From an uncultured Cytophagales bacterium (GTDB taxonomy: Bacteria; Bacteroidota; Bacteroidia; Cytophagales; Thermonemataceae), in assembly GCA_938002655.1 (NCBI GenBank), contig CALLAC010000012.1, positions 1 to 64,000 on the forward strand: a stretch of 64,000 nucleotides of DNA, read 5' to 3'. The translations under genes were made by a program, and so were the position numbers. The notes beneath the pieces are model-generated. The model made no database searches, had not been told where the DNA came from, and worked only from the letters and a program-made list of their open reading frames with translations. Shown here piece by piece: positions 30,276-32,673 of the stretch. The stretch's first letter is position 1; each line of letters starts with the position of its first letter.

Positions 30276-30384
30276 AGATACACGATTATCATTCGGCATC
30301 AAAGAAACTCAAAAAAAGTTTTCGTATTGCAAATTTGTGAAAAAAAATCTTTATTTTTACGCCTGCAACCTCAAAAATACCGCT

Positions 30385-30840
30385 ATGGCTCTCAAAATAG
30401 GCACTTTTGCCCCCGATTTTACTCTACCTGCAACCAATGGTAAAAACATCACTTTAAGCAAAGATTTAGCAGGCAAACCTTGTGTTTTGTATTTTTACCC
30501 CAAAGATTTTACCCCTGGTTGTACCAAAGAGGCTTGCGAGTTCAGAGACCAATTCGCTACCTTTCGCAATCTGAATGTTGATGTTTTGGGCATCAGCAGA
30601 GATAACATAAATACCCACCAAAAATTCAAAGAAACTTACAAACTCCCCTTTGAACTGCTGGCTGATGTAAGTGGATCGGTTTGTAAGGTTTATCAAGCAC
30701 TCATTCCTATTATCGGTATTCCCAAACGCATTTCATATCTTTTGGATAAAGACCACAAAATAGTGGCAGTTTATCAAGATTTTTTTGGAGCCGAAGAGCA
30801 TATCAGAGCCATGCTAAAAAAATTGCAAGTAGAAGGGTGA
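30385..30840 (+). CDS. bcp: Thioredoxin-dependent peroxiredoxin (Bcp type)
   Basis: The ATG at 30385 (MALKIGTFAPDFTLPATNGK) gives 151 residues; an upstream TTG is less likely. The peroxidatic Cys46 and the resolving Cys51 lie in DFTPGCTKEACEFRD, the atypical 2-Cys arrangement of Bcp/PrxQ. LGISRDNINTHQKFKETYKLPFELLAD follows as in the family. The enzyme reduces hydrogen peroxide and organic peroxides in the cytosol with thioredoxin. Confidence 0.93.
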   Translation: MALKIGTFAPDFTLPATNGKNITLSKDLAGKPCVLYFYPKDFTPGCTKEACEFRDQFATFRNLNVDVLGISRDNINTHQKFKETYKLPFELLADVSGSVCKVYQALIPIIGIPKRISYLLDKDHKIVAVYQDFFGAEEHIRAMLKKLQVEG

Positions 30841-30904
30841 ATTTCATCTTTATTATCAGACTCCACAAATTTTTTGAACAAAATAATTCTTTAATCTTTC
30901 GGCT

Positions 30905-31834
30905 ATGAGTAAAACGTTAATTCAAAGATTTGTAAAAAGCAAATCTTTTATTCGTACCACTAGCGTAATGATTATTGCTTGCTCTATTTTGCTCGGCATT
31001 GAAGCCTCTTTTACACAAGAAATCTTACTTTTTAGCATTTTAGACATTGCTTTCACTTCTTATTTTATCTTCGAAATCGTTTTACGTATTTTTGCAGAAG
31101 ATAAGCCTTGGAAATTTTTCAAATTATTTTCGTTCAAAAAGCAGATTAGCTCCAAAACTGGCAATAAACACACCCAAATTGTATTCCACGAACACGGCTT
31201 TTGGAACTGCTTTGATTTTTTGATTACAGCATTCAGTGTTTTTAGCCTTGTTGTACATATTTTCGAGCATCCCGAATTTTTAGTAGTAGGGCGTTTGTTC
31301 CGAGTTTTACGTATTTTACGACTTTTAGAAATCAGTAATGAACTCAAAGATGTAGAGCGAAAAATTATCAGTATTATTCCCACGGTATTTTCGTTTGCTT
31401 TGCTTTTAGGCATTCTTTTGTACATTTATGCAATTATAGGCATATACTTGTTTAGCCACCACAAATACGAAAATGCCGATTTCAGCAGTTTGGGGGCTTC
31501 CTTTCTTTCTCTCTTCCAAGTAATGACCCTCGAAGGATGGGTAGATATGATGTACCAAGCCAGTGAACACTACGAACATTCTTGGTGGATAAAAGGGTAT
31601 TTCATCAGTTTTGTTATTCTCACCGTTATTGTAAGTTTCAATGTATTTGTAGCAGTACTTACTTCGCAGGTGCAAGAGAAAATCAATGCCAAGCAAGTAC
31701 TAGAAGAAAAACAGCTTTTTAAGGAAATGAATGGTATCTTGAAAGAAATGCGTAGTAAAATGCTTAAAGAAATTGAAGAATTGCGTGCAGAAATTCAAAA
31801 AATGCGTGAAGAATTAAACAAAAGCCAATCTTGA
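30905..31834 (+). CDS. Voltage-gated cation channel (BacNav/Cav-like) with TLEGWVD filter
   Basis: The 309-residue protein is a single-domain six-helix channel that would work as a tetramer. S1 and S2 lie at about 18-65; a long basic loop of about 30 residues separates S2 from S3 (98-120). S4 has four arginines at three-residue spacing (R130, R133, R136, R139 in RLFRVLRILRLLE), the voltage sensor. S5 is about 160-183, the pore helix FLSLFQVM leads to TLEGWVD (208-214), and S6 is about 229-252. The C-terminal 55 residues are a coiled coil (KEIEELRAEIQKMREEL), as in bacterial sodium channels. NaChBac has TLESWAS; the Gly and final Asp here resemble calcium channels. pyrF starts 11 nt downstream. 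Confidence 0.9.
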   Translation: MSKTLIQRFVKSKSFIRTTSVMIIACSILLGIEASFTQEILLFSILDIAFTSYFIFEIVLRIFAEDKPWKFFKLFSFKKQISSKTGNKHTQIVFHEHGFWNCFDFLITAFSVFSLVVHIFEHPEFLVVGRLFRVLRILRLLEISNELKDVERKIISIIPTVFSFALLLGILLYIYAIIGIYLFSHHKYENADFSSLGASFLSLFQVMTLEGWVDMMYQASEHYEHSWWIKGYFISFVILTVIVSFNVFVAVLTSQVQEKINAKQVLEEKQLFKEMNGILKEMRSKMLKEIEELRAEIQKMREELNKSQS

Positions 31835-31845
31835 CTTCTGCAAGT

Positions 31846-32673
31846 ATGACTTACCAGCAAATCCGAGAAAGCATCGTTGCTAAAAAATCTTTTCTTTGCG
31901 TAGGTTTGGATAGCGATTTGAACAAATTGCCTACATTGCTACCCCAAAATGCCCAAGGAATACTTGCTTTCAATAAAGCTATTATTGAAGCGACTTTACC
32001 TTTTGCCATAGCCTACAAAATCAATACAGCTTTTTACGAAGCTCTTGGAGCAGAAGGCTGGAAAACAATGGAAAAAACTTTGGAACTTTTGCCAAAAAAT
32101 GTTTTCAAAATTGCCGACGCCAAACGTGGCGATATCGGAAATACCTCAAAACTTTATGCCAAAGCCTTTTTTGAAATACTGAATTTTGATGCCCTCACCA
32201 TTACTCCTTATATGGGTGAAGATTCTGTTAGCCCTTTCTTGGAATATGAAAATAAATGGGTGATTCTGCTCGCTCTTACTTCCAACGTGGGTAGCAAAGA
32301 TTTTGAAATGCTCAAACTTTCCAACCATCGCTATTTGTACGAGGAAGTAATACTCAAATCGCAAGAATGGGCTGATTGCCATAAAATGATGTACGTAGTA
32401 GGTGCTACACAAACCGAAAAAATACAAGAAATTCGCCAACTTGCACCAAAGCATTTTTTGCTTGTACCCGGCATTGGCACACAAGGCGGTGATTTGGAAA
32501 AAGTGATAGAATACGGCTCTAACGAAGCGGGAGGTTTGCTTATCAATGTTTCCCGAGATATTTTATTTGCTTCGCAAGCCAAAGATTTTGCTGAAAAAGC
32601 CCATCAGAAAGCCGAATTTTGGCAAAAACAAATGAAAGAAAAATTCGCATCTCTTCTTAAAAAAAATGAATAA
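31846..32673 (+). CDS. pyrF: Orotidine-5'-phosphate decarboxylase
   Basis: The ATG at 31846 (MTYQQIRESIVAKKSFLCVG) gives a 275-residue enzyme of the longer type 2 family that makes UMP from OMP. The active site reads FKIADAKRGDIGNTS with its catalytic Lys; LCVGLDSDL lies at the N-terminus and LLVPGIGTQGGDLEK near the end. The channel gene stops 11 nt upstream, so they may share a transcript. It converges on aroK with a 6-nt gap. Confidence 0.95.
   Translation: MTYQQIRESIVAKKSFLCVGLDSDLNKLPTLLPQNAQGILAFNKAIIEATLPFAIAYKINTAFYEALGAEGWKTMEKTLELLPKNVFKIADAKRGDIGNTSKLYAKAFFEILNFDALTITPYMGEDSVSPFLEYENKWVILLALTSNVGSKDFEMLKLSNHRYLYEEVILKSQEWADCHKMMYVVGATQTEKIQEIRQLAPKHFLLVPGIGTQGGDLEKVIEYGSNEAGGLLINVSRDILFASQAKDFAEKAHQKAEFWQKQMKEKFASLLKKNE

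Follow-up and report, generated by a model that had tools for sequence, protein, structure and literature searches.

The window, the whole stretch of 64,000 nucleotides analysed here, holds a gene for a one-domain voltage-gated channel whose selectivity filter, TLEGWVD, is identical letter for letter to residues 183-TLEGWVD-189 of CavMr, the proven native calcium channel of Meiothermus ruber (PMC7041947). The scaffold that carries this filter differs from that of CavMr, with no long two-cysteine P2-S6 loop and with a long S2-S3 linker. We propose, at a probability of about 0.63 and by analogy, that the gene product is a homotetrameric, depolarisation-opened cation channel that would prefer Ca2+. 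Its nature as a voltage-gated channel is near certain from gene, fold, S4 and filter; its tetrameric state, voltage gating and Ca2+ preference we infer from characterised relatives. Judged by its sequence, it is a good candidate for a bacterial calcium channel distinct in kind from CavMr, the one bacterial Cav known to us with measured Ca2+ selectivity.

The channel gene, its product and its host

The gene, its predicted parts and its two neighbours are arranged as follows.

30337..30840 (+): neighbouring gene upstream, for a peroxiredoxin (AhpC/TSA)
30905..31834 (+): six-helix voltage-gated cation channel gene; ATG frame of 309 aa, PF00520
30941..31096 (+): S1 (residues 13-35) and S2 (41-64), with E33 and E57; AlphaFold model
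31127..31186 (+): insert in the S2-S3 linker, a beta hairpin of strands 75-81 and 88-94; model
31190..31255 (+): S3 (residues 96-117) with D104; model and alignment
31271..31333 (+): S4 voltage sensor (residues 123-143) with R130, R133, R136 and R139; model and sequence
31337..31453 (+): S4-S5 linker and S5 (residues 145-183); model
31490..31525 (+): P1 pore helix (residues 196-207); model
31526..31546 (+): selectivity filter TLEGWVD (residues 208-214); sequence
31538..31570 (+): P2 pore helix (residues 212-222), then a short Cys-free stretch before S6; model
31583..31828 (+): S6 and C-terminal heptad helix (residues 227-308), with the S6 Asn, N246; model
31846..32673 (+): PyrF (orotidine 5'-phosphate decarboxylase); ATG start chosen by us, 11 bases past the channel stop

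The channel gene is complete, maintained and under purifying selection, and is not a chance frame, given its match to the Pfam Ion_trans family PF00520 (135.5 bits, cut-off 25, covering residues 19-259), its divergence from the Raineya orbicola orthologue (dN 0.089, dS 0.92, NG86), and the presence of orthologues in 14 other genomes. Between the window and R. orbicola, the filter codons show three synonymous changes and a single Asp-to-Glu replacement. In NCBIfam, no family matched with an E value of 0.01 or lower.

AlphaFold2, run on a 30-row alignment, gave a model (mean pLDDT 88.6, pTM 0.67) with six membrane helices, two pore helices and an S6 that runs on as an unbroken helix to residue 308. 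The top Foldseek fold was NavAb (E 4.7e-10), and the nearest folds from Foldseek and a second structural look include NavAb, CavAb, NaChBac, NavMs and CatSper. A preliminary description of this DNA had claimed a TLEGWVD channel, a complete S4 with four arginines in steps of three, and a coiled-coil tail, and all of these are borne out: TLEGWVD is read at 31526-31546 within the 309-residue PF00520 frame, the arginines are R130, R133, R136 and R139, and the tail is a single C-terminal helix in the model, with 9 of 13 a/d positions hydrophobic in the best heptad register versus 1-8 in the six other registers.

Conservation was read from two alignments, A1 of six sequences, also used as a profile, and A2 of 30 rows, which takes in 30 of our 61 sequences and 7 of the 15 members of the clade described below. 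E57, D104, R130, R133 and R136 are each invariant in all 30 rows of A2, as are E33 and R139 in all six of A1; the S4 pattern R..R..R..R recurs in 15/15 clade members. The S4 arginines and their acidic partners E57 (S2) and D104 (S3) are all present, and the invariant columns include, besides these sensor residues, pore residues, the Thr and Trp of the filter, and the Asn of S6.

The window lies on contig C12 of a 2.64 Mb genome (44 contigs, 97.5% complete); among named records it is closest to Raineya orbicola SPSPC-11 (84% identity) and the Raineya MAG SKYG86 (83%). The genome encodes GldL, which is no proof of gliding because it belongs to the type IX secretion machinery as well as to the gliding machinery. 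R. orbicola, a hot-spring isolate with a growth optimum near 50 C and no growth at 1% NaCl, was described as non-motile (PMC5982127), and the earlier attribution of the channel to a gliding bacterium is weak and not established. The growth optimum of this named species of the genus suggests a stable channel protein. PF01699 (Ca2+/cation antiporter) had no match in the genome, and two pump genes carry Cation_ATPase_C (PF00689); these pumps could export Ca2+.

Peroxiredoxin, channel and PyrF stand head to tail both in the window (30337-32673) and in locus L015 (2225-4447), and the two neighbours adjoin the channel in R. orbicola and in the SKYG86 MAG. Because the gaps between the three genes in R. 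orbicola are only 3 and 12 bases, they are probably co-transcribed. Neither neighbour stands beside the channel in the stretches from five other genomes (G002, G004, G053, G069 and G273, with short flanks in G053, a 5.4 kb contig, and in G004, where the gene lies at two contig ends), and we set aside an operon logic linking the three functions, tight as the arrangement is in R. orbicola. A ferredoxin-reductase-like gene, read from its first residues, lies near the channel in L076 (3536-4585; G002) and in L081 (3374-4420; G004), two loci whose surroundings are otherwise unlike.

Filter, scaffold and relatives

CavMr was presented as the first native bacterial Cav, and human Cav3.1 and Cav3.2 share TLEGWVD in domain I (PMC7041947); the identity with Cav3.1 domain I was seen also in our PDB alignment, and PMC8002053 likewise gives TLEGWVD as the CavMr filter. 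Since CavMr has this very filter, TLEGWVD as such is not novel. The preliminary description had called it calcium-type, and this part stands, with a stronger case than was made there; the identity with CavMr had been missed, and the filter is not new.

Published changes to CavMr separate the filter positions (PMC7041947): PCa/PNa is 218 in the G240A form, falls to 11.9 (G4S) or 7.7 (G4D) when position 4 is changed, is 40 for V6T, and is still 144 for D7M, while single changes at position 4 or 6 admit K+ and Cs+. For CavMr, Gly4 is the determinant of Ca2+ selectivity and Asp7 is dispensable, so the weight first put on Asp7 is not warranted. Gly4 and Val6 are both present in the window filter, and a review proposes, resting partly on CavMr, that glycine at position 4 makes one-domain channels Ca2+-selective (PMC10120453). 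NavPp given the CavMr filter became Ca2+-selective, no currents could be detected after the whole filter was exchanged between CavMr and NavAb, and two of four cloned AnclNavs were without detectable currents (PMC7041947). The silent swaps indicate that a filter needs a scaffold that suits it; together with a scaffold unlike that of CavMr, they mean that selectivity is not readable from the filter alone.

CavMr has a long P2-S6 loop with a disulfide, which may affect selectivity, as PMC10120453 suggests. Published numbering (D189, and G240 as the equivalent of NaChBac G229; PMC7041947) places its S6 Asn 46 residues beyond filter position 7, assuming that the Asn precedes the Gly by 4 as in NaChBac. 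The same segment has 31 residues and no cysteine in the window channel, and 31-33 residues with at most one cysteine in 14/14 measurable clade members (L088 stops at a contig end); it has 28-29 residues in NavAb-like rows of A2 (n=10) and 46-55 in NavPp-like rows (n=11), two cysteines being present in 10/11 of the latter and the length being 46-48 in the seven two-Cys NavPp-like rows of A2. Four rows (L053, L056, L063, L065) have long segments (41-47 residues) with no cysteine, and a short segment alone is no group marker, since L048, L050, L057 and L060 outside the clade are also short (30-33). The long S2-S3 linker does mark the clade: the span from the S2 Glu to the S3 Asp is 41-48 in 7/7 clade rows of A2 versus 20-31 in the 23/23 others, and 37-46 in the other 8 clade members, by a pattern reading whose scale is one higher, whose candidate we chose ourselves for some rows, and which failed on three non-clade rows. 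The new part of this channel is its scaffold.

The short loop lends some weight to a voltage-gated Na+ or poorly selective monovalent channel, in which the scaffold would prevent the filter from taking its Ca2+-selecting shape. The P2-S6 length is near that of NavAb-like rows and away from that of NavPp-like ones, the CavMr-NavAb swaps carried no current, and CavMr itself passes K+ and Cs+ once position 4 or 6 is changed. However, Gly4 and Val6 are in place within a filter identical throughout to that of CavMr, Gly4 has been held through the deep divergence of the group, and R. orbicola is a low-salt organism, whose failure to grow with 1% NaCl makes a Na+ role less likely. We judge a monovalent channel unlikely, and favour a Ca2+-preferring one; the main doubt about the latter is that the filter may behave differently in a short-loop scaffold.

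In a 61-row tree with the filter masked, the window gene falls within a clade of 15 sequences (support 100/100) found only in Cytophagales here, with members 42-87% identical to the window protein. The A1 profile matched 8 of 390 genomes of the order at E below 1e-100, the next genome lying at 4.2e-24; among 395 genomes of the phylum the best match besides the window's own genome was 3.7e-30. In the family of G273, 8 of 295 genomes matched at E below 1e-40, and seven of these were new; at that threshold the families of G069 (1/10) and G053 (1/19) yielded nothing beyond the matches already known.

Clade filters with Glu3 are confined to the window's own family, which supplies five of the sequences (TLEGWVD in two genomes of its genus, TLEGWVE in 2, and TLEGWPD in 1, on a contig end), and those with Asp3 make up 10/15 (TLDGWSD 4, TLDGWSE 3, TLDGWTE 2, TLDNWSD 1). 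Conservation of the filter in Cytophagales, a check proposed at the outset, is clear within this group at two positions, with Gly4 in 14/15 and an acid at position 7 in 15/15; the full variation is E/D at position 3, G/N at 4, V/S/T/P at 6 and D/E at 7. With Asp3 in ten members and Asn4 in one, the group may not be uniform, and selectivity may vary between its members. The Asn4 member, L087 (G952) with TLDNWSD, offers a natural test of position 4.

We built trees of 56, 54 and 61 rows, all with the seven filter columns masked. Rows are matches fetched as loci, after we dropped by hand 15 loci that duplicated others from the same genomes and excluded L012, L046, L047, L061 and L068 (no frame); further, weaker matches from the order and phylum searches lie outside them. 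Five rows came from a plasmid search with L009 (38 records, six fetched). A plasmid tblastn search with the window protein gave no matches, one scan of viral contigs found no relative, and a scan of genome contigs found two Raineya records and one Cytophagales MAG. L054 (G657) and G576:C38:57463-57948 are matches within frames of 816 and 770 aa, against the usual 260-330 or so, and are possible fusions to a further domain.

The group lies outside a 17-row clade of NaChBac and NavAb-like channels (support 100/92 in the 61-row tree, 87/78 in the 56-row tree), on a long stem of 2.87 and 4.34 changes per column respectively. Gly4 occurs in 28/61 rows, a count of matches fetched as loci and hence not a population frequency, and is spread over the NavAb-like clade (L055, L064), NavPp-like rows (L036) and further groups; parsimony requires at least 7 changes on the best 61-row tree, several forks of which are weak, and 6 on the 54-row tree. 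Position 7 is acidic in 28/28 Gly4 rows versus 15/33 other rows. Because Gly4 changes at least 7 times on a filter-masked tree, the filter shared with CavMr is not evidence of kinship, and the glycine filter seems to be either a solution reached repeatedly or an old state retained in scattered places.

Three sets of rows outside the clade also carry Gly4. L010, L011, L041 and L044 (G052, G037, G116, G067), from the same order, form a deep-branching group with TMEGWYD, TLEGWYE and TVEGWYE; L055 and L064 are short-loop and NavAb-like, with TLEGWAE and TLEGWAD inside a clade of TLESW channels; and the NavPp-like L036 (G152) has a two-Cys loop and TLEGWSE among relatives with TLEDWAD, making it the most CavMr-like row here in loop and Gly4 together.

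These placements bear on whether the gene is simply an ordinary member of the AnclNav family of CavMr and NavPp, which we think improbable. The window filter is not the canonical TLESW of BacNavs and is of the AnclNav type, with more acids than TLESW, as in CavMr and NavPp; its identity with CavMr and the topology tests, in which joining the group with NavPp-like rows is not rejected (p-AU 0.373), would fit such membership, and the four Cys-free long loops noted above suggest that loop length may shift within the family. Yet joining the group with NavAb/NaChBac is equally good (p-AU 0.362, also not rejected), and CavMr enters our comparisons through its published numbering and filter, the trees holding NavPp-like rows in place of CavMr and NavPp. 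The long, usually two-Cys P2-S6 loop is missing from all 14 measurable clade members, a disulfide loop being here a mark of AnclNavs that we take from the account of CavMr in PMC10120453 and not from a published group definition.

Proposed function and its significance

In the calcium channel that we propose, four copies would form one pore, and the S4 arginines would sense voltage by sliding past the acidic residues of S2 and S3, the S4-S5 linker then operating the S6 gate. Within TLEGWVD, the four Glu3 residues would make a binding ring, and Gly4 just above it would widen the mouth and admit hydrated Ca2+, as proposed for CavMr and for domains I and III of animal Cavs. The C-terminal helix would keep the tetramer together, and the S2-S3 beta hairpin would be a group-specific cytosolic element. 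We guess that a voltage change raises cytosolic Ca2+, which P-type pumps might then clear. A250 occupies the place of NaChBac G229, where NavAb also carries Ala; G240A at this site in CavMr gives larger, more stable currents and G229A in NaChBac slows inactivation (PMC7041947), and slow inactivation is on this analogy a fair guess for the window channel.

A channel-like voltage or temperature sensor, coupled to the S2-S3 hairpin and the tail and passing little or no current, would suit the long stem branch, the clade-only long linker, the lack of a shared neighbour gene found beyond close Raineya, and a genome in which this gene is the sole PF00520 match and PF07885 has none, but it is very improbable, as pore residues, including the Thr and Trp of the filter, and the Asn of S6 are invariant along with the sensor residues and PF00520 spans residues 19-259.

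We also hold, tentatively and at slightly less than an even chance, a broader proposal: Cytophagales would have native voltage-gated calcium channels of a class apart from that of CavMr. On a scaffold with a short loop and a novel S2-S3 hairpin, these would carry a Cav-type glycine filter, either arisen there or retained, which matches CavMr and Cav3 domain I exactly in two genomes of the window's genus and is a CatSper-like TLDGW in others. Glycine filters would then be a repeated bacterial solution to Ca2+ selectivity, with at least 7 changes at position 4. The silent CavMr/NavAb swaps did not settle whether the CavMr filter would confer Ca2+ selectivity on a short-loop pore like that of NavAb, and the window gene is a natural version of this missing chimera. 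With it, the part played by the glycine can be tested directly in a second scaffold, and the clade supplies natural variation at positions 3, 4, 6 and 7. Our literature search, which covered mainly open-access papers, found none on voltage-gated channels of Raineya or Cytophagales.

Comparison with known channels

All seven filter residues are shared with domain I of Cav3.1 and Cav3.2, which is one of four unlike domains in a single chain, whereas the window channel has one domain. We considered kinship with eukaryotic Cavs and set it aside: in the 56-row tree, the only one to include them, two human Cav3 domains paired on long branches with no link to the group. Cav3 also came first in the PDB ranking, where its score sums four domains; per domain the best of Cav3.1 is 46.7 bits, versus 92.7 for NaChBac (6vwx), and the best one-domain sequence matches are 4bgn (93.0 bits) and this NaChBac entry.

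CatSper kinship was considered because of the Asp3-Gly4 filters of the relatives and the top structural row. CatSper3 and CatSper4, with filters TVDGWTD and TQDGWVD, belong to a heteromeric complex (PMC7041947); they share Gly4 and an acid at position 7, and the TLDGWSD and TLDGWSE of the clade resemble them. The top row of the second structural look was 7eeb_C of the CatSpermasome (Z 17.8, 268 aligned, rmsd 3.6, 18% identity), leading by little over a Nav1.7-NavAb chimera (Z 16.7), with NavAb rows about 1.5 below, so on the predicted model the ranking of CatSper and NavAb is near a tie. No chain named CatSper stood among the 60 of 140 profile-search matches listed.

With NaChBac and NavAb the window channel shares its fold, a short P2-S6 segment and a C-terminal helix, and differs from them in its filter (TLEGWVD versus TLESWAS and TLESWSM) and its long S2-S3 linker. 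With CavMr it shares the filter and the one-domain voltage-gated type, and Meiothermus, like Raineya, is of hot-spring-type habitat. The two differ in the P2-S6 loop, long in CavMr (46 residues by numbering) and 31 residues and Cys-free here; in the S6 glycine G240, for which the window channel, like NavAb, has a natural Ala; and in the extra S2-S3 linker. Ca2+ selectivity has been measured for CavMr, and for the window channel we infer it.
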